DNA of 64,000 nucleotides from Candidatus Anstonellales archaeon (GTDB taxonomy: Archaea > Micrarchaeota > Micrarchaeia > Anstonellales > CG1-02-47-40). The first letter of the stretch is position 1. Every line of letters starts with the position of its first letter. The translations under genes were made by a program, and so were the position numbers. Where the stretch lies: NCBI GenBank assembly GCA_038869735.1, contig JAWCQO010000005.1:14818-78817 (forward strand). The letters run 5' to 3'. This document shows, piece after piece, positions 6,262 through 63,786 of this stretch. The notes under the pieces were generated by a model, which worked only from the letters and a program-made list of their open reading frames with translations, was not told the DNA's origin and ran no database searches.

Positions 6262-6274
6262 ATGGATATGATAT
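6262..6274 (+). other. 5' half of the pre-23S processing stem (3' half at 9174-9186)
   Basis: ATGGATATGATAT at 6262-6274 is the exact reverse complement of 9174-9186, and a further interrupted pairing continues outward. Long stems of this kind enclose archaeal 23S precursors and carry bulge-helix-bulge sites cut by the splicing endonuclease. It marks the ends of the mature RNA to within a few bases. Confidence 0.85.
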
Positions 6275-9172: not shown

Positions 9173-9277
9173 TATATCATATCCATTCCCTCTTCTGGAG
9201 CTTGCGGTTTTCTCAAAATCCTTAAAAACACTTTTTTCTGAAGTTCTGGTGCTTGAATGTGTTTAGACTGGCTCTTT

Positions 9278-9409
9278 CTTGCGCTATCTAACTTCTAATC
9301 TTTGCTTTCTATAGTTGTTGCTGCCTATAGGGTAATAATATTGCCACAATATTGAAAACGAAGGATATAGGCTTCCTTGCGCTATCTGCCTCTAATCTTT
9401 GCTATCTAA
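9278..9409. repeat. imperfect direct repeat flanking a hairpin
   Basis: Copies at 9278-9311 and 9376-9409 share CTTGCGCTATCT and TCTAATCTTTGCT...TCTA with a few changes. They bracket the inverted repeat at 9323-9372, and the right copy just reaches the 3' end of the minus-strand operon. Confidence 0.7.
9323..9372. terminator. inverted repeat between convergent 23S and membrane-protein operon
   Basis: The outer arms GCCTATA/TATAGGC and inner arms AATATTG/CAATATT (3-base loop) form a two-level hairpin in the gap where the 23S unit and the leftward operon converge. A role in terminating or stabilising one or both transcripts is inferred from position only. Confidence 0.4.
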
Positions 9410-12400
9410 GTTTCCTCCTCGCATTTTAGCTGTTGATTTGACACAACGTTTGCAAAGACGCATGACTTGGAGATGTCAAGTCCGGGTTTACATGCTGGAA
9501 CGTCTCTTCCTCTGTTTCCATATATGATTGGGGTTACGTCTCTCCCTGCTACTTCCATTTTTGCATAGGTATGGTATACCTTTTCGTCAGGCTGAATCTG
9601 CCCGTCGAGATTGCTGTCCTCTTCGCTTGCTATGCAACACCTCATGGATGGAGGAAGTGACGCAAGATACTCAATGTACAGGAAGGATTCGTCTTGTTCT
9701 GTTTCTGGGTTGTTATAAGACATATTCTGAATGGAGGGTGGTTCTTTTACCGTGCCGTCAGTATAAGTACACTTAACAAAATCTTGAGATTCGTCCCCAT
9801 CGTAAGACGGATTTGTACAGAGTCTCTCGCTGCATACCTCTCTTCTTGCGCATAGAAGTGGGCATTTATAGCCGTAAGGCCAGTCATCTCCTGCTGGAAT
9901 ATCACACATAGAGCCATCTGCACAAATATTTGAAACGCCGGCTGTCTGCTCTGACTTTGTTCTTCTTTCACATGTGCACTTCTGGCTATCTGCAACCAAT
10001 CTAACATAAGTCGTTTTTGTTGATAAGTCAACGGTGAGCCTTGAGGCGTTTTGAATCACGCAAAATGGCTGCTCCTCTGGAGAGAGAGTCTCATTAAAAC
10101 CATAAGGTTGGAGTTCATTTCTTGGCTCATGGATTCCTATAATTCCACTGGAGGATAAGTTTGACGAGAGTTTTATTAGCTCCTGAATCAGTCGCGCCCT
10201 GTCTATATCTTGCCAGCTGTCACACTGAGGAGCCTCTGTTGCCCTTTCTCCAAAGTATATGAGGGATGGTAAGTTGAAATCCATAAGAAGCTTTCTTGAA
10301 GCGTTTGTCAAGTTTGTTGCCATCAGGAGCGCTTGCTCTTCCGGGGACAGCGCGCAGAACGACGGATTTCCTCCTGAATAATAAGCCATTTCGGGAATAT
10401 AGGGCATTATGATTATCAGGTCAAGCTCTTTTAAAAATTCAGTGTCTATCGTACCTGGCGAGGGCGTGTGCACTACTCTTTTGTAAGTTATCCCGTTAAT
10501 TGTTTGTACGTTTCCGTCTGCCTGCTCATTTAGGAGCAAGGCATAAGAAATTGCATTAACGTCTTGCATTGGAATAGCCTCGCCATCTAAAGTCGGTGAA
10601 ACGCCTCTAAGGGCAGGAATTATGACTGCAGTTAGGGCGTGAGGAAACTTGCGTTTGTAGTATATGACTTTGTTTTTTATGTCTTCTATCTTAGAGGTGT
10701 TTCGCAGAAGGTACTGTTGTCCGTTGTTGTTTAGAATTGTAACCTCTGAGAGGTTAATAGTGTGAAGAGCAAGTATTGTTGTTCCTTGGTCCTTTAGGTA
10801 TTTTGCAAGATTTGCTGGAAGAAATGTGTCGAATTTGTTTTGTGGTGAGAGTCTACAGGAGTAATAGGAGTAACATTCTGAAGGATTGTGTTGCTCGCAC
10901 CACCCGTTTGATGCACAGGCACTACCGGTCCATTCACATGATGGAGAATCTTCGCATCGAAGCATGGTTTTGTCTTCGCAGTCGCCTATACAGGAAAAAG
11001 AAGTTACATTTGCTAAATACGGAAGCGTGTTTGGAACAACAAGAATTGGAAGAGTGGAGGCTTTTTGATATTTTTGTATTTTTACATGGAGGTAGTTTGG
11101 GTCTGGCAAAAACGAGGGACCTTGGGCAGTCATTGTTGGATGGGGTGATTGGTTGGGTTGTTCGTCTTGGACATACACTGTCACACCCTTTGCGTCTGTG
11201 TCGTTGTATGACTTAAAGGGAGAGGGAGGCGCACAGTCATAACAATATCCATTGGAAGCTGTGCATTCCCCATAGCTCTCGCTTTGAGTAAGGCAAACTG
11301 GAGTGTTTTGCTCGGTAGGCGAAATTTGTTGCACTGCACTGGTAGAAAGTGAGCAGGGCTCGCACCCTCCCCAAGAGTAGATGAGAAGTTGGCCTTCGCG
11401 CTCTGGGTCGGAAAGACAGTCTCCAAAAAGGATTTTTCCAGCATCTTGGCCTTCTCCTTGGTGTGGAGTGATAAGCACAAGGGTTTGGGTTCTTGTTGGT
11501 TCCCAGAAAAGTTCATGGGGCCACCAATCTAAACTGCCTCCCTCATGATCAAAGAATTTAAGCTCGAAAATAGTGAATGTGCCGTATCTTATGTGAAAAT
11601 CAGTTCCAAGCCTCATGTTGCAGGCGCTAAGAAGTGGTATTCTTTGTTTTATTTCTTGTTCTGTGTAGTGGGAGTTGTACAGGACAGTATAGGCACGAGA
11701 AGTTTCATTAGAAGTCGTTGTTTTGGACATGTCTATCTCTAGCGGGCCTTCGAGTCTGTTGTTCTCGTACCAGTATCTGCAATTATAATGGTTATCGCCT
11801 ATCTGACCAACTCCTTGTTGATTTTCACCACTGCCTACTGAAATTGAGTGACAGATATACAGCGTATCAGACCACCTATCATTAGGGAATAGAGTTCTTT
11901 CATCTGGAATTGGTGGAATTGCTCTTTCAGGCTGTCCTTCGTATGGGCAGAAGTCTTGATTTCCAAGGCCTTGATAACCTCGGGAGTCTCCGTCTCTAGA
12001 AAATGAATAAGTATTGCCGTCAATTGTAGCAGTACAGCGAAAGGTTTGGGAACTGCCGCTGTTAGAAAAGTTGCCTCCTGTGCAAACATAACATGCTGAA
12101 CCGACCGATGTATCTCGCGGATGAATAGTAGCTCTCATAGGAAGTTTTTCGTTAGCAGAAAGAGCGTTTACCTTGCACTTTGTCTTTCCAAAGCTATCGA
12201 TGTAGCAGCCGCAGTCAACGGGCGTTCCGTCTTTAAGAATGCATTTGTTGGTTGGGAGTATATTCTTGTTGCAGATGCCAGAGTAGCACTCCCCGTTTGA
12301 TTGGCAAAGCGCACTTGCGCCCGGAATTATGTTTAGGATTTTTGAGTTGCGATTATCACACAGTTCTGGCCCTACCTGCTCTTCGTTGTCAAGCCTGTTG

Positions 12401-13701
12401 TTGGAATTTTCATCCAAGTAGCAAACGCAGCCTGGTTCTGGGCAGTAGCCGTTTGCTATTTCAAATTCGTATTGTTCTTTTATTTTGGAGATATAATAAT
12501 CGGTGTCTATTTTTTTTGTAGTCTCTGTTGCGTAAAGCGTGCCATTGGGCCTTGAAATATTTAATTTTTCTTCTGTTGTTACATATTGACTTCTTGCTAA
12601 GAATGGTAGATATACTCTCTCATCAGCCTGTCCTGTTGGGAGAGAGCATGAACGCTGTGGGTAGCAATTATCCATGCACGCTCCTTTGCTTGAGTACTGC
12701 TTTCCTGTGCTGGCACAAGTCCACTTTATTCTCTTTACTATGGATATGTTAAACTCCTTTGTCCAGTGGCACTCGCCGCCGTCGCCGTATTTATAGTCCT
12801 CGCATGGTGTTCCCCTTAGAAGCTCATCTATGTTTGAATAACAGTTTGCTGTTATAAGTACACCCGAAGGAGAATTTACGGGGTGGGCTTCGCCCCATTT
12901 AGTTGTATACCCGATAAGGTAGCCTTTGAGTGGCCCTGATGCAAACTGCCGCTCAACGTAATTTAGATATCTGTCTTTTTGGTATTTGTTATAATCACTA
13001 AAGCCGCAGAAGACATCTGAGATGGGAGTATAAAGGCGCGCCTCTTCGAATGTTGAGAAATTGTTTGCGACTCCAAAGCGGAATGTGTTTATGAACGCTG
13101 TCGGAGACGACTTAAATTCCCTATTTGTCTCTTTGTTGAGTGGCTTGAAAGAACAGAAAGTTCCAAACAGCCCCTCCGGAACATCTGTAAAATCAAAAGA
13201 AGAAGTAGAGAAGGCGGTTGGGTTTAGGTCTTGTGGTTGGGGTAGTGCTCGGTCTCGTGCATTAAGGTAGTCAGACAAACTCATAGATATGCGTGGGTTA
13301 TAGGAGGTCCTGCCGCAAATCATTGCCGCGCAGTCTGGCGCTATACAGGGGTCAGATGGAATTTGGCCGCAAACGGGGATTTTGCTGTCTACACCATTGA
13401 CACAGCCTGGTGGACACCATTGAGGATTTCCATTTGCATCTGCTGGACAGATAGAAGGGTCGCAGTAATATGTGCAGTTTAGCCTTTCATTTTCGGGACC
13501 TAAATCTGATATGCTTGGGCATTCAAGCCTCTGGCTTCCATTGAGGCTTAGAACATCTCTACATTGAAAGCTTGAGGTGTAGTTACCTGAAGCGCAACAA
13601 GAAGTGTATGCGGTTTGAGCAACGCATCCGACAAGAAAAAGGAGAGGGGATATCACTAAAATGAACGAGCCGATTGATGCCGAAACTGAAATCTTTTTCA
13701 T
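9406..13701 (-). CDS. giant cysteine-rich secreted or lipid-anchored surface protein
   Basis: This 1,431-aa protein is the last gene of the seven-gene operon. The N-terminus has a hydrophobic signal ending in LFLVGC, a lipobox-like site that would put the lipid on Cys26. The rest lacks an obvious second membrane helix and is very rich in cysteine pairs and N-glycosylation sequons. A calcium-loop-like DENSNNRLDNEE occurs near residue 425. A cysteine-poorer block (about 960-1240) contains LDLIIIMPYIPEMAYY and SSSGIIGIHEPR, which look like strands of an alpha/beta barrel, possibly a hydrolase-like domain. It starts four bases after the upstream stop. A role as the exposed part of the membrane complex encoded upstream is inference. 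Confidence 0.8.
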   Translation of the reverse strand: MKKISVSASIGSFILVISPLLFLVGCVAQTAYTSCCASGNYTSSFQCRDVLSLNGSQRLECPSISDLGPENERLNCTYYCDPSICPADANGNPQWCPPGCVNGVDSKIPVCGQIPSDPCIAPDCAAMICGRTSYNPRISMSLSDYLNARDRALPQPQDLNPTAFSTSSFDFTDVPEGLFGTFCSFKPLNKETNREFKSSPTAFINTFRFGVANNFSTFEEARLYTPISDVFCGFSDYNKYQKDRYLNYVERQFASGPLKGYLIGYTTKWGEAHPVNSPSGVLITANCYSNIDELLRGTPCEDYKYGDGGECHWTKEFNISIVKRIKWTCASTGKQYSSKGACMDNCYPQRSCSLPTGQADERVYLPFLARSQYVTTEEKLNISRPNGTLYATETTKKIDTDYYISKIKEQYEFEIANGYCPEPGCVCYLDENSNNRLDNEEQVGPELCDNRNSKILNIIPGASALCQSNGECYSGICNKNILPTNKCILKDGTPVDCGCYIDSFGKTKCKVNALSANEKLPMRATIHPRDTSVGSACYVCTGGNFSNSGSSQTFRCTATIDGNTYSFSRDGDSRGYQGLGNQDFCPYEGQPERAIPPIPDERTLFPNDRWSDTLYICHSISVGSGENQQGVGQIGDNHYNCRYWYENNRLEGPLEIDMSKTTTSNETSRAYTVLYNSHYTEQEIKQRIPLLSACNMRLGTDFHIRYGTFTIFELKFFDHEGGSLDWWPHELFWEPTRTQTLVLITPHQGEGQDAGKILFGDCLSDPEREGQLLIYSWGGCEPCSLSTSAVQQISPTEQNTPVCLTQSESYGECTASNGYCYDCAPPSPFKSYNDTDAKGVTVYVQDEQPNQSPHPTMTAQGPSFLPDPNYLHVKIQKYQKASTLPILVVPNTLPYLANVTSFSCIGDCEDKTMLRCEDSPSCEWTGSACASNGWCEQHNPSECYSYYSCRLSPQNKFDTFLPANLAKYLKDQGTTILALHTINLSEVTILNNNGQQYLLRNTSKIEDIKNKVIYYKRKFPHALTAVIIPALRGVSPTLDGEAIPMQDVNAISYALLLNEQADGNVQTINGITYKRVVHTPSPGTIDTEFLKELDLIIIMPYIPEMAYYSGGNPSFCALSPEEQALLMATNLTNASRKLLMDFNLPSLIYFGERATEAPQCDSWQDIDRARLIQELIKLSSNLSSSGIIGIHEPRNELQPYGFNETLSPEEQPFCVIQNASRLTVDLSTKTTYVRLVADSQKCTCERRTKSEQTAGVSNICADGSMCDIPAGDDWPYGYKCPLLCARREVCSERLCTNPSYDGDESQDFVKCTYTDGTVKEPPSIQNMSYNNPETEQDESFLYIEYLASLPPSMRCCIASEEDSNLDGQIQPDEKVYHTYAKMEVAGRDVTPIIYGNRGRDVPACKPGLDISKSCVFANVVSNQQLKCEEET

Positions 13702-13705
13702 GTAC

Positions 13706-14746
13706 TCATATCACCTTTGATATAGCTGAAGTAAGTTCTCCTAATTCCCCTCCAAGGAGTGGTGTTATTATGCGCACAAAAATAAGAGTTAGAGCAAAAG
13801 CAATAAATGGATAGTACATTATACCGATGGTAAGGGTTGCAAGCTCTGATGAGAAGAGTTCAAATGTACTTCTGCTTATGTCAACGTTCTGGGTTATTGT
13901 TGAAAGTGTAACTGATGCGCCAGAAAAACCGGCATAGCATGCATTGAACACCTCTGTTTTTGGAGTGACGTCTATATCGCCGGATCCGTGAGCATATGCT
14001 GGATCCATAACGACATAGAATGCAGGGAGTATAAAATAAAAGCCCATCGCAACGGCTATAAGAAGGCCTCCGGCCCCTCTTGTAAATTGAAATATTCGAA
14101 GGAGGATGCCAAGAGGAAGAAAAACTGACAGCATATTCTTCTCTATATAATCGAGGAAGATGTATTGCGCGTGTAGATGGATAAGGAGTGGAGTTATTTT
14201 TGAGCCAAGAAGATGGGCGCGCTCAACATCTCCACGCAAGAACCAGTCACCGCAGTAAACCTGAATGCCTACAAAGCTCAAACAAAATGCAGCTTGCTTT
14301 TCGGTTTCTTTGTTTTGTTCAAAAATTCTCTGATACATTTTGTCAAGAAAGTTTATTTTTTCCTGTATTCTGCACTTTGCAAAGGATATTGGGTTTCCGA
14401 TTATAAGTCCGTTTTGGTCGATTGAAAATGTTATCGGCTGTCCTCCACACTCTATTGCGGTATCTTGGCCTATTATTATTGCAATGGTGATAAATGCGGC
14501 TAGGTTGACAAGATTTATAAGCATGACTATGAGGATTGATGATGCAGATGCCTGAAGCATCTCTGAAATGGCCCAGCGCTTTATATTTTCAAGAGATAAT
14601 GACCTTCCAATGACGTATACTATTGTAAAGAAGAAAATGCATAGTGCTACTGCTGAAAGCGCAACGGCATTCCACCCAAGGCCTTCCCAGACGGAGATGA
14701 GGCCTGTGGTTGAGCCATAAGATTGGAGGATGTATGCGGGCTCCAT
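13706..14746 (-). CDS. VirB6/CedA-like polytopic membrane protein (paralogue 6)
   Basis: This is the smallest ectodomain version of the operon's repeated core: 346 aa with about six membrane segments and no large cysteine-rich domain. It shows three shared landmarks. These are a helix after TM1 with IKRWAISEMLQ, the motif LPLGILLRIFQFTRGAGG leading into a long hydrophobic helix ending in LPAFYV, and a C-terminal helix ending LLGGELGELTSAI. The loop between TM2 and TM3 has a few cysteines (AIECGG, FAKCRI, VYCGDW). Its ATG directly follows the stop of the upstream gene. Similarity to VirB6/TrbL or CedA is inferred from topology and context. Confidence 0.75.
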   Translation of the reverse strand: MEPAYILQSYGSTTGLISVWEGLGWNAVALSAVALCIFFFTIVYVIGRSLSLENIKRWAISEMLQASASSILIVMLINLVNLAAFITIAIIIGQDTAIECGGQPITFSIDQNGLIIGNPISFAKCRIQEKINFLDKMYQRIFEQNKETEKQAAFCLSFVGIQVYCGDWFLRGDVERAHLLGSKITPLLIHLHAQYIFLDYIEKNMLSVFLPLGILLRIFQFTRGAGGLLIAVAMGFYFILPAFYVVMDPAYAHGSGDIDVTPKTEVFNACYAGFSGASVTLSTITQNVDISRSTFELFSSELATLTIGIMYYPFIAFALTLIFVRIITPLLGGELGELTSAISKVI

Positions 14747-15757
14747 TCATATCAACCTCGATAATCTTCCTGCATCAACCTCTTGTCCTAACAATCCTGA
14801 AACCTGCGATATAGCCGCAACAACAACAATAAGATTGATGGAAGTTATAAAGACTGAACCAAAGAATATTAGAGTTGCATTTTTTATAAGGAAGATAACG
14901 TCTGTACCTTCTTGGATTGTAGAGGAGTAAATCGCTGGAAAGAAAAGGCCCTCCAACATCAAGAGGAACGGAAAGAAGATGTAAAGCGCGACTCCAAGGC
15001 CTATCAGGGAACCTCCAAACATGCGCATAAATGGTATGCTGCGAAGTATGATACCCCAAACAAGGCAGAAGATGAGAAAGGAGTTAGTATAATCGGTGCC
15101 TACAAGAAGAATGTTATAGACGCCTATCTGCGCAAGGATGGTAGCAAGGGATATTAGAGACGAGTTCATAAACAAAGTGAGAACTGCGTTGTGTGCCTGC
15201 ACTCCGGATTCTGGATTTAAAGAAACTCCAGAACCCCCAAGGATGCAGAGGGTTTTGCAGTTCCATAGTGTGAGAGTCAATTTCCTTTCATTTAGGCCTA
15301 TAATTTCGCGTAGATTATAAAACGTAGAATAGGAGATTGTTTGCATATAGACTAAAAACTTTTTTGCTGCAGTGTAGACGTTGTCTGACTCCTGAAAATC
15401 TACATTGGCTTGAGATTCAATAGGTATCTGCGGAAGGTTGGTGAGCGTTACTGCGCTTCCTACCTCAATAGAGCAGAAGAGCGTCAAAATTTGGAGTATT
15501 AGTGCAATTATAATGGCAGTGCTGATAAGTTGCATAACTTCATCTTTTGACCAGGCCACTAGCCGAGGATAGCTGAGAAACTCTCCAGCAGCATATGTTA
15601 TTGCTATCAGTCCTGCAAGTGCCGCAAATCCCGCGGTTGCGTAAGAGATTGCAGGCGAAAATAGATTTTGTGGCTGCTCACATATCGCTTGTTGGGAAAA
15701 TGCAAACCCTCCGAGGGCAAGAACAAAAAATAATAGTGTGTTGTTTGTTCTTATCAT
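14747..15757 (-). CDS. VirB6/CedA-like polytopic membrane protein (paralogue 5)
   Basis: The protein has 336 aa with a signal peptide (FFVLALGGFAFSQQ), then TM segments with the shared core: LVAWSKDEVMQLISTA after TM1, VWGIILRSIPFMRMFGG before the long middle helix ending FFPFLLML, and the C-terminal LLGQEVDAGRLSRLI. The start is the ATG at 15757, which overlaps the upstream TGA as ATGA; a longer frame to 15817 would lie inside the upstream gene. It has few cysteines and no large ectodomain. Topology predicts an integral subunit of a membrane channel or pore. Confidence 0.75.
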   Translation of the reverse strand: MIRTNNTLLFFVLALGGFAFSQQAICEQPQNLFSPAISYATAGFAALAGLIAITYAAGEFLSYPRLVAWSKDEVMQLISTAIIIALILQILTLFCSIEVGSAVTLTNLPQIPIESQANVDFQESDNVYTAAKKFLVYMQTISYSTFYNLREIIGLNERKLTLTLWNCKTLCILGGSGVSLNPESGVQAHNAVLTLFMNSSLISLATILAQIGVYNILLVGTDYTNSFLIFCLVWGIILRSIPFMRMFGGSLIGLGVALYIFFPFLLMLEGLFFPAIYSSTIQEGTDVIFLIKNATLIFFGSVFITSINLIVVVAAISQVSGLLGQEVDAGRLSRLI

Positions 15758-17034
15758 TGCGACAACCTCACAAGGGTCGATATGTCTATTTGAGAGCCAA
15801 ACATTGCTGCAAGCCACTGGATAAACAGAAGCGTTATTGTTAGGTTCAGCGCAGTCGCAAATATGGAGCGCAGATATACTTGAAAGATGAGTGGTTCAAA
15901 GTTGTAAATGCTTTTGTTATCGCCTATTTCTGTTTGGCCGATTAATGGTTCGATGAATTTTTCGCGTGTGCTTGCGTAGGAAAAATCAAATGGGTCGCAT
16001 GTTTGAGTGCGAATCGTATTTGCAAGATTAGAATTTTGGTTGCTTCTGTAAGCTTGCAAGTACTCATTAGAGTCTAAAATTTCTCCAAAAAGAATTTTTT
16101 CTGAAAAAAGGAAAGTAAGCGGCAGGACAAGGTATAGCCCAGCTGCAAATGCTATTAACGTTCCACCTACTTTTCGCGTGAAGTTGAAAGTGCGAAGGAA
16201 GATTCCTATAGGAAGCAGGATAGAGAAAGCATAATTCTTTGCAAAGCTCATGATAAGGAAAATTGCCTGAAAATCTGTAACAGCAAGAGACAATGATGTT
16301 GTCGCATGGGTGATGGAAGGGCGCATTGCATTTATGGCGGAACATGTGATTATTGAATACCCAACACCTAATATTGAGCAATAGCCGGATTTTGAGCCTT
16401 CTTGTCCCGATTTCTTTGAAATTTCAAGATAGTTTGAGAGTAGGTCTTCGTAATTGCTCTTTACATCTTCAAGGGTTGCAAACGCGTAGTCATAAAATGT
16501 CCCCTCTACTTCTGCCCCACCAGCTAAAGACTTAAATGCTGGGAGGAGAGAGGCGTCTAGATAATAAGCCATGCTAGTAAGAGAAGCTAGAATCAGTGCT
16601 GTAAAGATAAGTTGGGTCAGCTCATCTTTAGTATAGGTTTTTAGTTCAGTTATATTGAAGACGGAGCTACCCATATAAAGTAGCGATATTAATGAAGCGG
16701 AGATAAGAAAAGCTATGAGTACTAGAGGAAGCCATTGTGACTGGCAACGGCAGTTAGAGCATGAGGCAGTTAAAGGACATCCGCCTCTTAGTTCTACTGC
16801 AGAAACTTCGCACTCCTCGCCTTGGTCAAGAACTCCGTTTCCACAGATTGGAAGCTGAACGTTGACGTTTTCTGCAATACATTCGCCGTTTTGGCAGATA
16901 TAACCTTCTTGACATGGAGGGGAGCAGAGTGCAGCGTTTCCTCCTTCTCCAGCGGAGAAAAGAACAGCTGAGGCTAGGATAATGAAAAAGAGCTCAAGTA
17001 TCAACGCCTTTTGTTGCTTCATTTTGCTCCACAT
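15754..17034 (-). CDS. VirB6/CedA-like membrane protein with one cysteine-rich repeat (paralogue 4)
   Basis: The protein is about 426 aa. A signal peptide (about 8-30) is followed by a short cysteine-rich ectodomain with a CGNGVLDQGEECE repeat. The membrane core then has ELKTYTKDELTQLIFTA, LPIGIFLRTFNFTRKVGG and the C-terminal MFGSQIDISTLVRLSQ. The ATG at 17034 overlaps the upstream TGA; another ATG at 17019 is possible. The repeat resembles the Myxococcus-type disulphide repeat found in surface proteins of many microbes. Confidence 0.78.
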   Translation of the reverse strand: MWSKMKQQKALILELFFIILASAVLFSAGEGGNAALCSPPCQEGYICQNGECIAENVNVQLPICGNGVLDQGEECEVSAVELRGGCPLTASCSNCRCQSQWLPLVLIAFLISASLISLLYMGSSVFNITELKTYTKDELTQLIFTALILASLTSMAYYLDASLLPAFKSLAGGAEVEGTFYDYAFATLEDVKSNYEDLLSNYLEISKKSGQEGSKSGYCSILGVGYSIITCSAINAMRPSITHATTSLSLAVTDFQAIFLIMSFAKNYAFSILLPIGIFLRTFNFTRKVGGTLIAFAAGLYLVLPLTFLFSEKILFGEILDSNEYLQAYRSNQNSNLANTIRTQTCDPFDFSYASTREKFIEPLIGQTEIGDNKSIYNFEPLIFQVYLRSIFATALNLTITLLFIQWLAAMFGSQIDISTLVRLSQ

Positions 17035-19334
17035 CACAAAAATCTTGATATTCCCGGAAGTTCTATATCTCCTCCGAATGTTTGGGAAAAAACTCTAATG
17101 AATGCTATCAAGACAACTATATTAAAGAGTGGAAGAACGTAAGCAGGAATTGCAAGCACACCTACATTTTTTGTGTCACTCATGGTTGTTTTTGCTCCTG
17201 TCTGGCTGGATATAAAGCCTGCAGGGGTAAAATCGCGTGAAGCGGCGGTTGGGAGATTGCAAACTTCTGCACAATTTGTCCGTATTGGGGGTATTGTGGT
17301 GCAGTCATCATCACATTTGAGGCACGAAGTGCAAAGTGATGGCGGTGAGTCTGTTGTGAAATTGCTTTTGCATTCCTTGTTGCAATATGGTTCAAGGCAA
17401 CTTGCGGGACAGTTTATGTCTCCAGCGTCTGCAACTCTGCACCTTTTTGGGCATGCAGAACATGTTCCGTCGGGTTGTGGTTGTATTGAGCCGTAGTTTT
17501 GACGAGTTGGAAAGTTTGCACAGTTTTGAGAGGGAGAGGGGATCTGAATTCCACAATAAGCTCGACAGGCAACACAGGAAGGGTTGGTCCTACAATGTAA
17601 TTGGAAGTAGTTGTCAGCGTCCTCATTGTCTTGGATGTTGGCGATGCGGCATTCGCGCTGGCAGCTTCCGCAAAGGGTAAGGCAGTCAAGTAGTTTTGGG
17701 TCTGGAATCCCTATCCTGCAGTTTGGTTCGTTTTCGCTTCTTCCCATTGGGCAATGTTCTTCTGTACATTCCTCGCATGCTTTCCAGACAGATTCTCCGT
17801 TTTCCTGCACTGGAAAGTCTGATGGCTTTGGAATTCTCCAATAGCCATCGACGGGGTCGTTTGGGTCATCATCTGACTTATCATCCGGATAAAGTGGATT
17901 GAAGTAATAAACACGACAAAAGTCTGGGCATAGTGTGCACTTGCCTTGGCATTCTGGCGACATATAACTGACTGAATTTATTATTGCACATCCAGATATA
18001 TAGCAGCCATCTTGAGAATCTTCTATTCTATTTGCTCTGGAGCAAGTATTTTCACCAAATAACTGTTTGATTTCCTCCGGGGGGTCGGGTTTTTCGTCAT
18101 CAGAAAAACATGTTGTCCTCTCGCGATAAGGGACATATGCTTGGTTGTCTGAATTCAGCTTACTTTTTCCTCCAACCTTACACTCGTCCGGGCAAGTGGA
18201 GCAAACGGCCCGTACATCAACGTCCTTAACTATTTGACCTGCGTGTTCAGAGTCTTCTGCTATGAGATCTGATTTGGTGCAAGAAGGATTTTGGATAGGA
18301 TAGGGAATTTCTCTACATATGGAGGGACATGAGAGGATTACGGTTTGGCCAGTTATAGTCTCACCTTCTTGATTTACAACCATTTGATTTGTCAGTTGTC
18401 TCTTGCAACTTCCAAGCTCTTCGCAAGTGTTTATTTTCGGTGGGTTGAAAGTGCATTCTCCAGGACAATAATCTGGAGGTGGGGAGACCATCTGGTCTCC
18501 AAACACTGCAACTTTTAGAGTAAACCAAGAAAAGACGTAGAGCATTGGCCAGACTAAAAGCAGGGATATTCCGATTGCAAGTAAAAGCCCTCCTAATCTG
18601 CGCGAAAAGAAAAATGTGCGGAGGATAACTCCATAAAAAATGAGCACAGATGAAAGAGATGCTGACTGCGGGTTATTTGTTGAAGCCAGATTGGATAGAA
18701 AGCTTTTTTGGGTGGCAAGCGAAGAGTATATCCCTGAGAGAACATCGAAGTTGTATGAATATCTTTCTGTGTACATGGAATAGCCGGCATTTTTTCCTGA
18801 ATAATAAGCGGCCCAGAGTGTGTAGTACGTGTTGGTAGACACTCCTTCTCGCTCAGAGGATTTTTTTGCATTTTCAAACGCATCTATGAGATTTGATTTT
18901 AGCGTTGAGTTTGTAATTGAAAGAAGCGAATCTAAGTAGCACAAACCAAGCGAGATTACATACGGCTGATTCTGGATGGGTTGGCAGGCAAATTGGCCTG
19001 CTGTTATTGATAGTAGAAACGAAGAAAGGAACGAGAAAATAGCGATAAGAGAGATTATTATCAGAGCTGAAGCAAAGACTTGTGAGAGTTCTGTATTTGC
19101 CCAGACTTTTATTTCTGGGATGTTTAGCCCTATCCCAACAATATATGCAATAGAAACGATGGATAAGGAGATGGCCAGCGCGATTATTGATGCCGATTGC
19201 CAATTTCCATTTCCAAGAAATTGATTATATGTAAGATCTATGGGGGATAGCTGTAGGAGTGGCTGTGGGTACGAGAAAGTAGAGAATAGCAAAAGAACGA
19301 GGAGGATCTGCGTCTTTTTTAATTTTGTATTCAT
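17034..19334 (-). CDS. VirB6/CedA-like membrane protein with a large internal cysteine-rich domain (paralogue 3)
   Basis: The protein has 766 aa. The shared core begins at the N-terminus (IKVWANTELSQVFASALI; then VILRTFFFSRRLGGLLLAIG). Instead of a short loop before the last helix it carries about 430 residues packed with CxxC-type pairs (about 285-715), for example CSTCPDECK, CTLCPDFC and CGSCQREC, which look like repeated modules with many disulphides or metal sites. It ends with the C-terminal TM and TFGGDIELPGISRFL. The ectodomain thus sits at a different point in the fold than in the paralogues. Its start follows the upstream stop directly. Confidence 0.78.
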   Translation of the reverse strand: MNTKLKKTQILLVLLLFSTFSYPQPLLQLSPIDLTYNQFLGNGNWQSASIIALAISLSIVSIAYIVGIGLNIPEIKVWANTELSQVFASALIIISLIAIFSFLSSFLLSITAGQFACQPIQNQPYVISLGLCYLDSLLSITNSTLKSNLIDAFENAKKSSEREGVSTNTYYTLWAAYYSGKNAGYSMYTERYSYNFDVLSGIYSSLATQKSFLSNLASTNNPQSASLSSVLIFYGVILRTFFFSRRLGGLLLAIGISLLLVWPMLYVFSWFTLKVAVFGDQMVSPPPDYCPGECTFNPPKINTCEELGSCKRQLTNQMVVNQEGETITGQTVILSCPSICREIPYPIQNPSCTKSDLIAEDSEHAGQIVKDVDVRAVCSTCPDECKVGGKSKLNSDNQAYVPYRERTTCFSDDEKPDPPEEIKQLFGENTCSRANRIEDSQDGCYISGCAIINSVSYMSPECQGKCTLCPDFCRVYYFNPLYPDDKSDDDPNDPVDGYWRIPKPSDFPVQENGESVWKACEECTEEHCPMGRSENEPNCRIGIPDPKLLDCLTLCGSCQRECRIANIQDNEDADNYFQLHCRTNPSCVACRAYCGIQIPSPSQNCANFPTRQNYGSIQPQPDGTCSACPKRCRVADAGDINCPASCLEPYCNKECKSNFTTDSPPSLCTSCLKCDDDCTTIPPIRTNCAEVCNLPTAASRDFTPAGFISSQTGAKTTMSDTKNVGVLAIPAYVLPLFNIVVLIAFIRVFSQTFGGDIELPGISRFL

Positions 19335-21839
19335 TTACATCCCTATTTCAGAAACCTTACGGATTGCGGATGCAAACCCATGCACTGAGGTTATTATTAT
19401 AATTATCGCGAGATTCGGAAGAAAAACGGCTTGTGGGAGAAGCAAGGCGAGCGTTTTAAAGGAAACGTGTGGGTCTGCAGCAATATAAAATGAATCAAGA
19501 ACTTGGCTTGTTAGAGGATATGTGTTTGCGAAGAGGGTATAGATTGCTGGAAATATTAAGTAAAGTGAAAAGCAGAGTGCCATAAGATAGTTTCCTGCGG
19601 TCCTGGTTGGTGGAAGGACTCTTAGAAAAATTGCAAAGGATAGGAAGAGTACTATTATTGGTTGGTTTTCTTGAGGGGTGGAAATGAAAAGAAGCCTAAA
19701 TAGTTCTAACTGGAGTTTTATGCTGACTATCATTGGTATGAGCAGGTCTATCATCACTTCCTGGGATTGTGAATACGCTCTCCTGATTGCGTCTTTTGAT
19801 TCTCCTTTGCCACCTTTAAATGGAATGCCAACAAAGAGATAGTTTGTTGCTTTGAGTTGATTAGTAAGACTACCTTCAGTTAGACGTTGAACTTCTGCCG
19901 TTCCGATTCTTTGAAGAGAGTCAAGGTATTTTGTTGAGTAAACGTACATCGTTGTACCTTCCGGGACATTTAAAAATGAGCCTATGACGGCGTTTGAGTT
20001 TTCAAGAAAGTTTGTTGCTAGAATCAAAACGGCAAAAATAGCTGACCAACCAAGATGCACTGCTTCGTCTCTTAGCAATATGTCAAGATGTACATTGCCT
20101 CCGAAATATTTTGAGTACATAAATGCAAGGGCTATGAGCAGGACGATTAAAAAAAATGCAGAGTGCACCAGTGCAGCGATGTTGCCTGAGCTAGGGCAGT
20201 CCTGTTGACAATAGACAGGTTCTGCTCCTTCACATCTGCCGTTTCCACATTCAAATGATGTTTGGATGCACCTGCAAGAATAGGGGTCGCAACTAAACTT
20301 TTCACTACAGTTGTTTTCTATTCCAGGATCGCACTCTTCGCCTTGGTCAAGAACTCCGTTTCCACAAAGCATTTGAGGAGGCTGTTTAGTTATTAAAACC
20401 TCCTTGCTTTCTTGCGCTGAGATTATGCTATCTGAATAGATAATCGACGCTTTAAACACCAGTGTTTTTCCTTCTGAGCAGGACTCATAGAGTGGGCATA
20501 CTATTGACCTTGTTAGTTGTTGGTCTGCCTGTACTTGTGTAGAGCCACTTAACAGCACTTCGGATGAAGATTCTGAACGGATTACCCACTCCCACTCAAG
20601 ACTTTGGGGGCTAACACCTTCTGGAGACGGAATGGTGATCCGTAATGATGGTGATTGTGACTCTGTGGCGGGGTTTGGCGTAATGTCAGAAAGAATTGGA
20701 GGGGGATGTTCTGGCACTAATTCATCTATAGTAGCTTCGTCAAATGTTTCATTGGAGGTGTAGCGTTCTCCTTGGCCATAAGAAAGAGTTGCATAAAACC
20801 TAAGAGTTGAACGATCAGGGCAACCGTTATCCAGATTGAAGCAGTAGTAGGTTTGATATGAGTAATTTGTTGTTCCTCTTCTGTAGGCCTGTGTTCCTTG
20901 ATGAATGGTTACACTCATTCCGTCCGGTTGCGTTAATTCGAAGCGCCAGTTTATAGTGTTGGGCTCAATGATGTTTTCAGGTATTGTGACGATTCCGTTA
21001 AAAACGTCTCGGGGATTCGCACGTTTTGGTTTAATTGAAACTGATGGTGGGAGGATAGGTTCATAGTATGCATCGTCAGATTGAGAGTAATCAGTGCAAG
21101 CATAAACAGAGCATGCCCTTACACGAACATGAACGTTTCTTGGTGATGAGGCTGAGCACCCTGGATAGTCTGAGCATCTAAAAGACATTGCTGATTGGCC
21201 CTCCATCCATGGAGTTTCAAAGTCTGGTCCGTCTCCAAGATAGGCAACCCACTTAAATTGATAGATAAAGTTACTTGCGTCTCCCTGTCCGGCAGTGACA
21301 AGTTGACATGAGGAGCGGCCGGATATTTGGTTGCAATAATTTCTATTTGCGACAGTGGCTGAATCTATTCCTGAAGTGTATCCTCTGCATCGAATGTTCC
21401 ACGGAGGTCCACTTTCGCCTTCAAGCCCTTCATCTGGGACACAAGAGTTTGAGTTTACATCCCAGTGACAACCGGCGGGTTGCTCTTGAAGAAAATAAGG
21501 AGCGTTATAATCGCTATATTGGGCACTCAAAGAATTACAATTATTTTGGTTTAGGATACTGCATCTTGCTTGTGAATTTTGAGCTCCCTGAGCAAGCTGG
21601 CATAATCTGCTGGCAAAATAACTCCCTGCTCGGCAGCCTCCGCTCCAGTCATTGCTTATGCTAACTGTTGTTGAATACGAAGGAATTGAAATTAGTGTGA
21701 GCTCTGGTTTTTCTGGAATGCCGGACACAACATTACCGCCTGCACCCTCGTCATCATCACCGATTATGCAATTTTGTGACATAAGAAATTGAGCAGCAAA
21801 TACTAGAAAGAGCAGGATGAAACTATAGGGGCTTTTCAT
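19335..21839 (-). CDS. VirB6/CedA-like membrane protein with beta-sandwich and cysteine-rich ectodomain (paralogue 2)
   Basis: The protein has 834 aa. A signal peptide precedes about 520 extracellular residues. The first 280 are cysteine-containing and of unknown fold. Two similar segments follow (about 290-380 and 385-490) that look like Ig/Fn3-type beta domains, each opening with PP...SxxPxxA. Next comes a CGNGVLDQGEECD repeat and CGNGRCEGAEPVYC. The membrane core (about 545 onward) keeps FAIFLRVLPPTRTAGNYLMA and a helix ending IFPAIYTLF. The end (FASAIRKVSEIGM) departs from the paralogues. It starts at the base after the upstream stop. Confidence 0.77.
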   Translation of the reverse strand: MKSPYSFILLFLVFAAQFLMSQNCIIGDDDEGAGGNVVSGIPEKPELTLISIPSYSTTVSISNDWSGGCRAGSYFASRLCQLAQGAQNSQARCSILNQNNCNSLSAQYSDYNAPYFLQEQPAGCHWDVNSNSCVPDEGLEGESGPPWNIRCRGYTSGIDSATVANRNYCNQISGRSSCQLVTAGQGDASNFIYQFKWVAYLGDGPDFETPWMEGQSAMSFRCSDYPGCSASSPRNVHVRVRACSVYACTDYSQSDDAYYEPILPPSVSIKPKRANPRDVFNGIVTIPENIIEPNTINWRFELTQPDGMSVTIHQGTQAYRRGTTNYSYQTYYCFNLDNGCPDRSTLRFYATLSYGQGERYTSNETFDEATIDELVPEHPPPILSDITPNPATESQSPSLRITIPSPEGVSPQSLEWEWVIRSESSSEVLLSGSTQVQADQQLTRSIVCPLYESCSEGKTLVFKASIIYSDSIISAQESKEVLITKQPPQMLCGNGVLDQGEECDPGIENNCSEKFSCDPYSCRCIQTSFECGNGRCEGAEPVYCQQDCPSSGNIAALVHSAFFLIVLLIALAFMYSKYFGGNVHLDILLRDEAVHLGWSAIFAVLILATNFLENSNAVIGSFLNVPEGTTMYVYSTKYLDSLQRIGTAEVQRLTEGSLTNQLKATNYLFVGIPFKGGKGESKDAIRRAYSQSQEVMIDLLIPMIVSIKLQLELFRLLFISTPQENQPIIVLFLSFAIFLRVLPPTRTAGNYLMALCFSLYLIFPAIYTLFANTYPLTSQVLDSFYIAADPHVSFKTLALLLPQAVFLPNLAIIIIITSVHGFASAIRKVSEIGM

Positions 21840-23876
21840 TTATATCAACCTATAAAGACCAATTATTCTGGTATCGCCTCCAAGAACTTCTGATGTGCCT
21901 TTGGTCATTACGACCGTTATAAAAACTGTTAAGAGGATGGATATTAGCGCATTTGTGTAAAAGCCAGATATTAGATGTAGAACTGATTCAAGAGGGGAGT
22001 AATAGTCTGAAATGAGCTCTGATTGAGATATTGCTGCATAGTTATAGAGTGCTGGCCCAAATGGAAGCGGGAATCCCTGCACAATTGCAAGGTAAGTTAG
22101 CTTTACTATGTTCGCACATGAAAAGAAGCCGCCTGCAGTGGCAGGATTTGACAGAAGAATACTACATATGAGCCACTCATAGAAGTCTTCTCCGGGTAAA
22201 ACGAACAGCGCAAATGTAGATGAACACACTAAACTTTGTGCTGGTGGACTACCGGGATCAAAATCAGTTGCATTTTTTATTGAGTTTAGGTCTAAGTTTG
22301 TTTGTGTATAGGCCCATGAGGCAAAAACGATACTGGCAGGAAACCAAAGATATGCTCCAATACACACAGCAATAAGGGTAGTACCTACCCTTCTTGTTAA
22401 TGGAAATGTTCTTAGGGCAAACGCAGCTGGTAGAAGAAGTGTTGGGATTGTTGATGAGAAAAAGTAAAGAAGCATTTTTTGTATTGAAAAGGCATATATT
22501 ATTTTTGATAAATTATCCAAAGCTTGGAGGATGCTTGAGGTTAGGATAGATAGTCCAGCTGATGGAGAACGGGATATAAATTTATTTGAGTAAAACGGAA
22601 TAAGTGGAGTGCTTAATGAATAAGAAAAACTTGAAATCTTTGAAATGTAAAAGTTTACTTCAGCCAGATAGTTTATTGAATTTCTCGAATTCTGGATAAA
22701 GTAATCAATGTGAGAAATCGCAGCTGAAGTCATATCTGGAGAACCCGTAATCGCACTTGCAAATGTCTCTATTCCAGCTATAGCAATAATGGTGGCAATT
22801 ATTAATGCTGCACTTGCAAAAACCTCTCTAAATTCTGATTTTGACCAAACGTGGAGTTGGATTGAGTTGGTAAATTCTGCAAGCATATAGGCAATGGCTG
22901 AAATTACGACGGCTGCAAAAAGACCTATTAGGATTATTGGTGAAATAGCGATTTGGACTGCATTGCCAAATAGGCGCGGGGCTGAAACGCACTGGCAACT
23001 TTCACAAATAAAGGCGTCTGCACATTGGTTGGTGTATTCACACTGTTCGTTTTCTTCGTCAATTATTCCGTTTCCACAATAAGGTGGGTTTGCTCTAGCC
23101 ACTTCATTTACTGACACACAAGAACAGGAGAAGCATCTCTGACCGACTTGGCAGTCTGCATCTGAATCGCACTCTTCGCCTTGGTCAAGAACTCCGTTTC
23201 CACAGCTGGATGTGAAAGTATAGGGATTGAAATCTCTAATTGATTCACATGTGCAATTTTGAGAGCATGTGTAGCCTGGAGCACAATTGTTTGTGTTTAT
23301 GTCGCATTCCTCTCCAGCATCTAAAAATCCATCACCGCACTGTGGTCCAAAAGCTATCTGTTCGGCTGTTGGGCTGCATTGGTTATTTAGGCAGGAATAT
23401 CCTGCTTTACAATCAGCATTTGTTAGGCATGATGTTTTGCATGTGCAAGATTGCGAGCAGACGTATGCGCCACAGTTGAGGTTTTGTTCTTTGTCGCATT
23501 CCTCTCCAGCATCTAAAAATCCATCACCGCATACTGGAAGGGAAGATACGCACTGGCAACTTAGAGGATCGCAGAGTTGTCCGCTTTTGCAGATTATTTT
23601 AGAATCAGCCGGGTCACACTGTTCCCGTCCCGTAATTTTTCCGTCGCCGCATACTGAGTTATCCTGTACGCACTGGCATCCGGGGTTACAGTAAAAGCCG
23701 AATGGGCAATCGCTGTGAATTTCGCATTGCTCTTGTGGTTGCTCGACTATTCCGTTTCCGCATATGTGAGCAGGGGGGCTACTTTGAGCAAAGAAAACTC
23801 CGCTTGAAAGGAGAAGAGTGAAAAATAGTATGGCGAATATGGAGCGCTTGTCAAAAATCACAAAGCCAAGCATCAT
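21840..23876 (-). CDS. VirB6/CedA-like membrane protein with six Myxococcus-type cysteine repeats (paralogue 1)
   Basis: This is the first gene of the seven-gene operon, about 678 aa. After a signal peptide there are six repeats of the pattern CG(N/D)G...(E/Q)CE/D in residues about 38-300: CGNGIVEQPQEQCE, CGDGKITGREQCD, CGDGFLDAGEECD twice, CGNGVLDQGEECD and CGNGIIDEENEQCE. The membrane core then has LHVWSKSEFREVFASAALI, PAAFALRTFPLTRRVGT and the C-terminal VLGGDTRIIGLYRLI. The ATG at 23876 (or 23873) lies about 25 nt from the palindromic TATA at 23894-23903, giving a leaderless operon mRNA. Confidence 0.8.
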   Translation of the reverse strand: MMLGFVIFDKRSIFAILFFTLLLSSGVFFAQSSPPAHICGNGIVEQPQEQCEIHSDCPFGFYCNPGCQCVQDNSVCGDGKITGREQCDPADSKIICKSGQLCDPLSCQCVSSLPVCGDGFLDAGEECDKEQNLNCGAYVCSQSCTCKTSCLTNADCKAGYSCLNNQCSPTAEQIAFGPQCGDGFLDAGEECDINTNNCAPGYTCSQNCTCESIRDFNPYTFTSSCGNGVLDQGEECDSDADCQVGQRCFSCSCVSVNEVARANPPYCGNGIIDEENEQCEYTNQCADAFICESCQCVSAPRLFGNAVQIAISPIILIGLFAAVVISAIAYMLAEFTNSIQLHVWSKSEFREVFASAALIIATIIAIAGIETFASAITGSPDMTSAAISHIDYFIQNSRNSINYLAEVNFYISKISSFSYSLSTPLIPFYSNKFISRSPSAGLSILTSSILQALDNLSKIIYAFSIQKMLLYFFSSTIPTLLLPAAFALRTFPLTRRVGTTLIAVCIGAYLWFPASIVFASWAYTQTNLDLNSIKNATDFDPGSPPAQSLVCSSTFALFVLPGEDFYEWLICSILLSNPATAGGFFSCANIVKLTYLAIVQGFPLPFGPALYNYAAISQSELISDYYSPLESVLHLISGFYTNALISILLTVFITVVMTKGTSEVLGGDTRIIGLYRLI

Positions 23877-23893
23877 AAACACTAGACATAATT

Positions 23894-34861: not shown

Positions 34862-35578
34862 TCAGGGATTTTCTGCTTTTGCAATATAACCGCCTTTTAG
34901 GAGCCTATCAAGTGCTTGTTCAACGCGGACTTCGGAGACGCCGTGTGCCTTCGAAAAGGAACTTATACGTATTCTACCACCATGTATCTTTATCCAATCA
35001 AAAACCATACATTCAAGCTCAGTGTCGGATATTCCATCAATTGAATCAAGACGTTTTTTTAGTATTGAATTTGTTTTTTCAAGTTCCATTCTGATTGAGC
35101 TTTCCTTTTCCAATAATTGCGACATTGTCTTGTACTCTTTAGATAGGCGTCTGCATTCTGCTGTCAATTTTTCACATTGGTTGGAGAGGATTTCCTGCTG
35201 GGTGTTTGTAAGCTTAAGAAGATGGTCTATTGGACCTCTGAGGATGGAATGGGCTTGTGAAAGAGGTATATTATAGCAGTTGCAGATGGCGAGTATGTCA
35301 AATAAATTAAGTAGCATTGAGAGGCGACGCGTGAGGTGTCTCTCTGATTCAGTTGTAAATTCAAGTTCAAATCCAGTGGGCATTAAAGAAAGAGTCCAAA
35401 AAGCGCGTGGATTGCCAATGAAGTCTTGTGATTCTACATGGGTTATACTAATAGTATCTGAACTCTTTAATGGGCGAAAGCCGATGGAGGAGAGGTTCTT
35501 AATTAGTTCGTCTGCGTTTTTTGTGCGCTTGCATTTGAGGCTAATTTTTTCTGTTTGTAATTTCAATCTAATCACCAT
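34862..35578 (-). CDS. coiled-coil plus winged-helix protein of the VirB4 group
   Basis: The protein is 238 aa. The N-terminal 105 residues form an unassigned alpha/beta domain, followed by a coiled coil (about 125-180) and a C-terminal winged helix (about 185-235; GGRIRISSFSKAHGVSEVRV, then DRLLKGGYI). Its start overlaps the end of the VirB4-like ATPase by 11 bases, so the two are translationally coupled and probably work together. A regulator or adaptor for the machine is inference. I know no named family. Confidence 0.65.
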   Translation of the reverse strand: MVIRLKLQTEKISLKCKRTKNADELIKNLSSIGFRPLKSSDTISITHVESQDFIGNPRAFWTLSLMPTGFELEFTTESERHLTRRLSMLLNLFDILAICNCYNIPLSQAHSILRGPIDHLLKLTNTQQEILSNQCEKLTAECRRLSKEYKTMSQLLEKESSIRMELEKTNSILKKRLDSIDGISDTELECMVFDWIKIHGGRIRISSFSKAHGVSEVRVEQALDRLLKGGYIAKAENP

Positions 35579-37058: not shown

Positions 37059-37068
37059 ATTAAGCAAC

Positions 37069-45110: not shown

Positions 45111-45144
45111 GATTTGAGATAGGTTGTTTTAGTATAAAAAGAAG

Positions 45145-45234
45145 CGCTCCGACCGGGATTTGAACCCGGGTTACCGGCTTTCTTCACGAAAATTTGAAAG
45201 GCCGGCGTCCTTGACCGGGCTAGACTATCGGAGC
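45145..45234 (-). tRNA. tRNA-Glu (UUC) with one intron
   Basis: On the minus strand: acceptor GCTCCGA/TCGGAGC, anticodon stem GCCGG/CCGGT with loop start CTTTCA (anticodon TTC), and T-arm CCGGG-TTCAAAT-CCCGG. An intron of about 16 nt follows position 37. The T-loop is uninterrupted. Its 5' end lies three bases after the tmk stop codon, so it is probably cut from the tmk transcript. Confidence 0.92.
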
Positions 45235-51524: not shown

Positions 51525-51813
51525 GCTCTCTCTTCTCATACTCACAATACTCATACTTTTCTTTATCAACACAGCTACCATTCACATATCCTCCATAATC
51601 TTAGCTCAACGGCAGCTCACCACTGATTTCATGGTTGAAGACGCAGCAGAATATGTTGGCGCCTTTGCTCTGCTACCAGGAATATCCTATACACGAATCT
51701 TACCTCCAATAAAGACAAACATTACTGATATCTGGTTAAACAATTCTAGAACAAAGAGCATAACACCTATATTTAATGGGCGGGTGTTATCTGATGAAAA
51801 AGAGCGCGTATAA
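51496..51813 (+). CDS. class III signal peptide pilin-like protein
   Basis: The protein is 105 aa starting at TTG 51496 inside the end of the previous gene. The N-terminus KAQISMEVELSLLILTILIL is the archaeal class III signal (Q-x-S-x-E followed by a hydrophobic helix), cleaved by an EppA/PibD-type peptidase. The rest (about 35-105) is a small globular head. The conserved signal supports the unusual start. The next gene starts before this one ends. Confidence 0.72.
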   Translation: MKAQISMEVELSLLILTILILFFINTATIHISSIILAQRQLTTDFMVEDAAEYVGAFALLPGISYTRILPPIKTNITDIWLNNSRTKSITPIFNGRVLSDEKERV

Positions 51814-52219: not shown

Positions 52220-52220
52220 T

Positions 52221-63681: not shown

Positions 63682-63786
63682 CTCCCCTATAGATAAGTTT
63701 TTAAACCTCACTTTATTTAACCTACTCAGCCAGGCCATTAAAATAAGCAATAAAGGCAAAATAAGAGGAAGGAGGAGTGGATAAGT

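Follow-up and report, generated by a model that had tools for sequence, protein, structure and literature searches.

For transfer machines of the type IV secretion superfamily, the prevailing picture is a ring of identical VirB6 subunits. An earlier note on the DNA analyzed here, a 64,000-nucleotide stretch that we call the window, had stated that known Ced, Ted and type IV secretion systems (T4SSs) use a single VirB6. Multi-copy cases contradict this statement: Rickettsia has five tandem VirB6 copies, rvhB6a-e (PMC2653234), Anaplasma has four, virB6-1 to -4 (PMC7648143), and Saccharolobus has a CedA paralogue, CedE (PMC11868833). Systems with multiple VirB6 proteins have precedents, and what differs in the locus described below is a fixed hexad of six types.

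Two DNA-import systems, Ced of Sulfolobales and Ted of Thermoproteales (PMC9905601, PMC11868833), resemble this locus in being archaeal and chromosomal, with no relaxase found, and in combining CedA/VirB6-like membrane proteins, CedB/CedD/VirB4-like ATPases (as judged by best HMM matches) and a VirB2-like pilin. However, they have one or two CedA-type proteins, whereas the Micrarchaeota hexad has six of fixed type and order. The Micrarchaeota proteins also score far under the Ced equivalog cut-offs, their VirB4 ATPase and its N-terminal part are separate genes, and giant Cys-rich ectodomains and a 1431-aa protein are new in Micrarchaeota. The Rickettsiales rvh and Anaplasma systems share with the hexads tandem VirB6 paralogues in one operon (there beside VirB3/VirB4), large extensions around the core, some of them surface exposed, and a host-dependent organism. 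In contrast, they belong to diderm bacteria with VirB7-11/VirD4, have five or four copies and show no duplicated whole set. The rvhB6 arrangement of four to five tandem VirB6 genes with VirB3/VirB4 differs from what we found, namely six genes that in the window’s order are unlinked from VirB4; the Rickettsiales expansion was probably independent of that in Micrarchaeota. The T4SS of Patescibacteria (PMC12102498) is likewise a reduced VirB2/4/6 set in ultra-small, host-dependent prokaryotes, but its VirB4 is of the bacterial FATA type, and the portion of that article used here reports no hexads.

Six adjacent genes and a seventh

The earlier note had described six neighboring minus-strand genes with a common membrane core. 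Coordinates, pairwise searches and a core alignment all agreed with this description, and the six adjacent ORFs (13706–23882, minus strand) were all present where the note had placed them. All six products are VirB6/CedA-like, and we named them alpha-p1 to alpha-p6. Alpha-p1 (21840–23882, 680 aa) has N-terminal Cys-rich DUF4215/myxo-type repeats (TIGR02232) followed by the membrane core; alpha-p2 (19335–21839, 834 aa) has a long extracytoplasmic N-terminal part and a C-terminal core; and alpha-p3 (17034–19334, 766 aa) contains 46 Cys and a large Cys-rich insert ahead of its last TM helix. Alpha-p4 (15754–17037, 427 aa) matches the NCBIfam CedA model NF041796. Alpha-p5 (14747–15757) was assigned by paralogy and trees; it has 336 aa when read from the ATG at 15757, which is a likelier start than the GTG at 15817. 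Alpha-p6 (13706–14746, 346 aa) yielded a predicted structure with a pLDDT of 69.5.

Gaps within the six are 0, 0, −4, −4 and 0 bp, and +4 bp separate the last gene from that of the downstream protein, alpha-7 (9406–13701, minus strand). Alpha-7 is a secreted, Cys-rich protein of 1431 aa with 73 Cys and one N-terminal TM/signal segment. The seven genes form one translationally coupled operon. In relatives, alpha hexads are followed by genes for 1000–1670 aa in the same position as alpha-7. Pfam assigned no family to this large Cys-rich protein, either in the window or in six relatives, and on the six window genes it recognized the Cys-rich repeats and no other family.

Paralogy was evident from phmmer, which linked each of the six to all the others in one search direction or both, most pairs with E-values of 1e-5 to 1e-19. 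The core alignment of the six showed a single Glu behind TM1 and the pattern L-R-x5-R-x2-G to be invariant; the corresponding E46, R182, R188 and G191 hardly vary among 33 diverse relatives. The motif previously given as LR-x4-(T/S)R-x2-G holds in this broader form, but its Thr/Ser position fails in alpha-p5 (PFMRMFGG), where a Met precedes the second Arg.

Relationship to VirB6 and CedA

Alpha-p4 matched the CedA model with an E-value of 4.6e-4 (5.0e-5 in a search of its own genome), scoring 19.8 bits against an equivalog cut-off of 330. This HMM matched one of 33 hexad-family members, and the CedE HMM gave a match at 0.0052. The Pfam TrbL/VirB6 family PF04610 had no match in the genome, a profile search against PDB sequences returned nothing up to E 10, and NCBIfam returned nothing at E 0.1 for 14 singleton VirB6-like proteins from relatives. 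Using hhalign, the singleton profile aligned to all 12 hexad profiles with probabilities of 99.4–99.9.

A model of a relative’s beta-p2 protein (319 aa, pLDDT 85.8) had VirB6 of plasmid R388 (TrwI; PDB 7o3v, 8rt9, 8rtd; PMC9259494) at ranks 1–3 of its VIA list, with Z scores of 8.7, 8.4 and 8.3 over 228 residues, nearly the whole chain; the next row had a Z of 6.5 over 106 residues. Z scores of 8–9 are modest for helical proteins, and the query was itself a predicted model. The list for the alpha-p6 model also held full-length R388 VirB6 matches. Foldseek with both models gave no match at E < 0.001 (E about 0.4), and sequence similarity between TrwI and the hexads is undetectable. R388 VirB6 assembles as a homopentamer from the product of a single gene, not as a hexamer, which counts against a mixed ring. 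Together with the CedA match, the structural matches of both models bear out the VirB6/CedA-like nature proposed earlier: the hexad proteins have a VirB6-like fold in prediction, the fold expected of the VirB6 part of a minimal VirB2-VirB4-VirB6 machine. Judged by sequence scores, they and their ATPases are related to the CedA, CedB and CedD equivalogs of NCBIfam and are not members of them.

Partner genes and the hexads of relatives

A VirB4-like ATPase (35568–37067, minus strand) and a VirB2/TrbC-like pilin (63754–63999, plus strand, incomplete at the contig end; E = 3.7e-13) are both present in the window, as had been noted. The pilin has a GAGAVYAGGQLMGAET core like that of hexad-type pilins. 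The ATPase (CedB HMM, 8.8e-25) was formerly counted as part of the hexad system. We rejected this assignment: in a tree from which row Hlink_G123 was disregarded as a wrong, antisense ORF, it grouped with ATPases beside the single VirB6-like gene of relatives (S type). The hexad-type ATPase of the same genome lies on another contig (G000:C1:130860-132410). Next to the window’s ATPase are a 2-TM protein (37069–37845, minus strand), whose homologues come before the VirB4-like ATPase in almost every locus read and which is possibly a detached VirB3/VirB4 N-terminal part, and a winged-helix/coiled-coil-like protein, AX (34862–35578, minus strand), with homologues downstream of the ATPase in both systems.

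The ATPases match PF12846 above its cut-off and the TraC/VirB4/CedB HMMs at E-values of 1e-14 to 1e-25. Their nearest HMMs are CedB and CedD, at 87.4 of 700 and 72.8 of 600 bits of the equivalog scores. An orthologue of the hexad-type ATPase comes directly after single hexads; in most loci read in such genomes, the order is hexad, VirB4-N-like genes, ATPase and AX, and in most the pilins lie close by upstream. Pilin homologues occur near hexads, at the end of the window and in its own genome. Singleton VirB6-like genes sit between a Pfam-recognized VirB2 pilin (TrbC/VirB2 PF04956, E = 2.8e-6, exactly at the gathering score) and a VirB4 ATPase. Hexads in the window’s order show no linkage to the ATPase. 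The earlier proposal had been made to depend on VirB4-like and VirB2-like partners in relatives, and these do accompany the hexads there.

Among 53 complete multi-gene clusters, 51 had exactly six genes and two had seven ORF pieces; the same census contained 14 singletons and no cluster sizes between one and six. Position HMMs built on 16 clusters read held-out alpha and beta clusters as p1–p6 in order. In trees of 97 and 240 sequences each position formed a clade in which the alpha protein joined its beta counterpart. Clades spanning all 38 clusters had support of 96 for p2 and 98 for p6, and the p1 clade was weak (25) in the larger tree; p3 and p4 of f20/f21 lay outside the groups of the other p3 and p4 proteins. 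These phylogenies indicate that the six subunit types had separated before the families split, and that alpha and beta hexads arose by duplication of all six genes as a unit. Such invariant number and order, together with the block duplication, support the suggestion that the six paralogues act together.

Ca. Anstonellales, the window’s order, has both hexads (beta at G000:C4), and other Micrarchaeota have one, including the cultivated Ca. Mancarchaeum and Ca. Micrarchaeum harzensis. Matches were found in 263 of 301 Micrarchaeota genomes, about 230 of which have six or more. A lineage-specific or mobile gene duplication was rejected, as the hexads are class-wide and their trees vertical-looking, and so was an assembly artefact, given dozens of independent assemblies that include single-contig genomes.

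A candidate mixed channel

Our literature search found no paper on this hexad system, in keeping with its earlier designation as undescribed. We favor, with reasonable though far from full confidence, a Ced/T4SS-like machine with six different VirB6-type subunits in one hetero-oligomeric channel, which is probably hetero-hexameric. The alpha hexad in the window would belong to a transfer machine that Micrarchaeota encode in their chromosomes, and the six diverged proteins from the coupled operon would build one inner channel, in the simplest arrangement a pseudo-sixfold ring with each subunit present once. A VirB2-like pilin would be assembled on top, and the split, hexad-type VirB4-like ATPase would drive the machine. 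In alpha machines, the Cys-rich domains of the seventh protein and of some subunits would face the exterior, where they probably serve to touch a partner cell; beta hexads lack such domains, and a third, simpler system of one VirB6-like protein, pilin and VirB4 coexists. The fuller picture, to which we give slightly less than an even chance, is that each position of a hetero-hexameric inner-membrane ring has had a dedicated paralogue since early in the class, and that two machines of this kind, one of them carrying Cys-rich domains for contact, operate next to a classical single-VirB6 system in a genome of less than a megabase.

By analogy with its homologues, the default cargo would be DNA. 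Injection of protein effectors into an archaeal host, as by Rickettsiales rvh, is unlikely but deserves serious weight, and it is compatible with a mixed channel. In architecture, the nearest precedent comes from the intracellular Rickettsiales, whose multi-VirB6 system has VirB6-3/-4 exposed at the surface (PMC7648143), and cultured Micrarchaeota need a host (PMC5498576, PMC8975820). The earlier note had seen neither a relaxase nor a coupling protein. The genome indeed lacks a match to PF03432, the relaxase family searched, and this also agrees with protein transport; as to coupling, one giant surface protein does end in a HerA/VirD4-like domain. However, no effector or canonical-type VirD4 was identified, and CedB and CedD, to which the ATPases are nearest, belong to DNA import, which in the Ced system is UV-induced.

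It is improbable that the paralogues form six (and twelve) independent channels, each a homopentamer with its own partner or cargo, sharing one ATPase and pilus in alternation. R388 VirB6 is such a homopentamer (PMC9259494), and the paralogues differ strongly in their extracellular parts. Independent channels should come and go singly, yet loss of a single member was seen in none of the 53 complete clusters, drawn from many families, and the genes are coupled, fixed in order and were duplicated en bloc.

We think it quite improbable that the hexads, though derived from VirB6, now form a surface or scaffold complex for adhesion, cell-cell bridging or envelope anchoring, with no translocation and with the Cys-rich ectodomains doing the work. 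The very large Cys-rich extracytoplasmic regions of alpha subunits and alpha-7 would suit this role, as would the missing ATPase linkage in Anstonellales, but beta and single hexads mostly lack large ectodomains, single hexads mostly share an operon with the VirB4-like ATPase near pilins, and the core motif (Glu, LR..R..G) has been retained. Finally, ordinary expansion of an unrelated polytopic family with a generic helical bundle, which the weak HMM and Foldseek scores might suggest, is very improbable given that full-length VirB6 heads the VIA list with a clear gap below it, that CedA and CedE HMMs match, and that homologous singletons lie between recognized pilin and ATPase genes.

A class that keeps six different VirB6 proteins, never a smaller set and in just two of 53 clusters an additional ORF piece, offers a natural test of how such channels are constructed and of whether their asymmetry matters, for example in nucleating a one-start pilus. 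Known archaeal mating pili have one-start symmetry (PMC9905601), and an asymmetric hetero-hexameric base, if real, would suit them. The hexad machine is also a concrete candidate apparatus for exchange between Micrarchaeota and their hosts, whose contact they need in culture. Published co-cultures exist for Ca. Mancarchaeum acidiphilum Mia14 (952,257 bp; PMC5498576) and Ca. Micrarchaeum harzensis (989,838 bp; PMC8975820), and because both species have the hexad (genomes G257 and G262), the channel question is testable now.

The alpha and beta hexads

The six tandem genes described in the earlier note were present as stated, all on the minus strand: g6 (21840–23882), g5 (19335–21839), g4 (17034–19334), g3 (15754–17037), g2 (14747–15757) and g1 (13706–14746), which occupy positions p1 to p6, respectively, of the alpha hexad. 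A gene encoding 1431 aa (9406–13701, minus strand) starts 4 bp past g1. Gaps within the block were 0 to −4 bp; thus, the seven genes look like a single translationally coupled operon. Direct sequence search showed all six proteins to be mutually paralogous, and the Glu after TM1 and an L-R-x5-R-x2-G motif were invariant among them and nearly invariant in distant relatives. The protein following the hexad is very large, Cys-rich and has one TM helix; alpha hexads of relatives are followed by similar proteins of 1000–1670 aa (e.g., L038, L042, L045, L047, L048, L051), for which no Pfam family was matched.

The genome that contains the window (884 kb, 15 contigs, 97% complete) was searched with a profile of the six cores. 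This revealed six further tandem genes, the beta hexad (G000:C4:28172–34708), whose proteins are 319–421 aa long without Cys-rich inserts, and one lone VirB6-like gene, the singleton (G000:C2:102408). In several genomes a gene for a one-TM protein of 225–257 aa comes after the beta hexad (L032 5431–6126, L036 5096–5773, L211 4194–4967; all minus strand). The protein is reminiscent of VirB8 in size and topology; a Pfam search gave no match.

Matches to the hexad proteins were found in 58 of 59 relatives within the order and in 263 of 301 genomes across the phylum, where 232 of the 263 had at least six (counted from the table) in a scan that scored no more than about seven candidates in each genome. 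All 61 named loci in the alpha-p6 alignment search came from Micrarchaeota or otherwise labelled archaeal MAGs. Relatives include Ca. Micrarchaeota archaeon CG1_02_47_40 of the same family (G001, locus L092) and LFW-35, Ca. Anstonella stagnisolia, Ca. Anstonellales, of the same order (G030, locus L093; PMC8561730). We read 67 complete clusters, fetched by coordinate: 51 had exactly six genes, 14 were singletons, and two had seven ORF pieces (an additional partial piece in L043, a split p3 in L062). No cluster had between two and five genes, or more than seven. Position-specific HMMs trained on 16 clusters labeled held-out alpha and beta clusters p1–p6, in order.

Elsewhere in the window, a complete 23S rRNA gene (6266–9182, plus strand) has no 16S gene accompanying it anywhere in this stretch, so the rRNA operon is apparently split. 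A tRNA (45144–45234, minus strand) has an odd anticodon loop, ‘tcaa’ according to ARAGORN. Four small secreted or one-TM proteins in a row (50913–52592, plus strand) have pseudopilin-like N-termini and by eye resemble type IV pilus-like minor pilins; Pfam gave no match.

Probable VirB6-like identity and partner genes

Protein g3 matched CedA (E 4.6e-4) and another family member matched CedE (E 0.0052); TrbL had no match in the window's own genome. Against the alpha-p6 model (pLDDT 69.5), R388 VirB6 matched at full length (Z 6.9–7.3, 219–221 residues) amid many hairpin matches. The beta-p2 model (43 sequences; pLDDT 85.8, pTM 0.78) placed R388 VirB6 at ranks 1–3 (Z 8.3–8.7, 228 of 261–272 residues, rmsd 6.2), and the next row had Z 6.5 over 106 residues. 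All 12 hexad profiles aligned to the singleton profile (probability 99.4–99.9), and the singleton holds the VirB6 place, with pilin on one side and VirB4 on the other. Sequence, predicted structure and gene context taken together make the VirB6-like nature claimed for the six proteins well supported, though not proven.

Single-hexad genomes (G089, G124, G245, G253, Ca. Mancarchaeum acidiphilum Mia14 and Ca. Micrarchaeum harzensis; G087 is similar) share one gene order: the six VirB6-like genes come first, then a pair of VirB4-N-like 2-TM genes, VirB4-like ATPase, small 2-TM protein, winged-helix/coiled-coil-like AX and a ~800-aa 2-TM protein. The VirB4-N-like gene is duplicated in such genomes. 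In G190 the ATPase lies away from the hexad; in G123 the ORF called at its place is antisense, but protein search nonetheless puts the ATPase there. VirB2-like pilins occur close to hexads or upstream of them in L183 (two copies), L184, L186, L188, L193, L195, L197 and L199, and a hexad-type pilin in the window (63754–63999) is cut by the contig end.

The singleton operon runs pilin, VirB6-like, VirB4-N-like, ATPase, and one pilin from such an operon attains the Pfam TrbC/VirB2 gathering score. In both systems the VirB4-like ATPase domain and N-terminal 2-TM part are separate genes (window 34862–37845; L202 5595–9240). In the ATPase tree, the window's ATPase clustered with singleton-adjacent orthologues (G022, G057), whereas G000:C1:130860–132410 clustered with hexad-linked ATPases, so the earlier pairing of the window's ATPase with the hexad is probably wrong in detail. 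In the window's genome the singleton and its pilin (L033 5382–6640, minus strand; pilin at 6386–6640, directly before the singleton) make up the core of a second system, with one VirB6, and the ATPase operon of this system is that at window 34862–37845.

Origin of the six types

In a 97-sequence tree every position formed one clade within alpha (support 89–99) and one within beta (86–99), with alpha and beta sisters at p1, p2, p3, p5 and p6. A larger tree (240 sequences from 38 clusters, with the single-hexad families f13 and f20/f21 represented) united all 38 clusters at p2 (support 96), p6 (98) and, weakly, p1; p5 united 36 (85), p3 31 (97) and p4 28 (92), the last with alpha and beta together. 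Singletons formed a group apart (98). Thus, the six types came first, derived from something resembling the singleton, and duplication of the entire block followed; the deepest joins are uncertain owing to long branches. Members of family f24 have one match or none, the singleton adjoining a VirB4-like ATPase and pilin (e.g., L201 in G277), possibly a pre-hexad state.

A putative mixed channel and its possible cargo

The analysis shows that the genes are invariant in number, fixed in order and coupled, and that the block was duplicated. Their six products most likely assemble into one mixed membrane channel with one copy of each, for which we infer a ring; a hetero-hexameric channel is plausible. 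It would sit below a VirB2-like pilus and above a VirB4-type ATPase built from separate N-terminal and ATPase proteins. Sixfold pseudo-symmetry would fit the VirB4 hexamer of dimers; R388 VirB6 has fivefold symmetry (PMC9259494). In the archaeal mating pili that are known, symmetry is one-start, not C5 (PMC9905601). An asymmetric base would fit such pili, although this is speculation.

Homology points to DNA as cargo, that is, DNA exchange. Effector transfer into a host is a serious rival. A search of the window's genome with PF03432 found no relaxase. At a contig start, L034 (1–9816, plus strand; G000:C6:1–9816) holds a frame that is open at its 5' end and encodes 3271 aa or more. Its product has a right-handed beta-helix and extracellular NEW3/Ig-like repeats, a single TM helix around residue 2880 and, after it, a cytoplasmic HerA/VirD4-like ATPase domain with GASGSGKT. 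This fusion of a giant surface protein with a translocase-type ATPase could be a receptor-coupled coupling protein.

The nearest known machines are Ced/Ted. Multiple VirB6 per system are already known, since the tandem VirB6 of Rickettsiales number five or four and carry large extensions (PMC2653234, PMC7648143). We found no description of a T4SS in Micrarchaeota in the open-access papers searched; VirB, secretion and conjugation are absent from the main text of a 2025 study covering 163 Micrarchaeota genomes, and the Mia14 paper mentions probable conjugative elements as well as numerous membrane proteins in islands (PMC5498576). What is new here is six fixed VirB6 types, in two sets per genome, in archaea, a pattern that is real, class-wide and underexplored.
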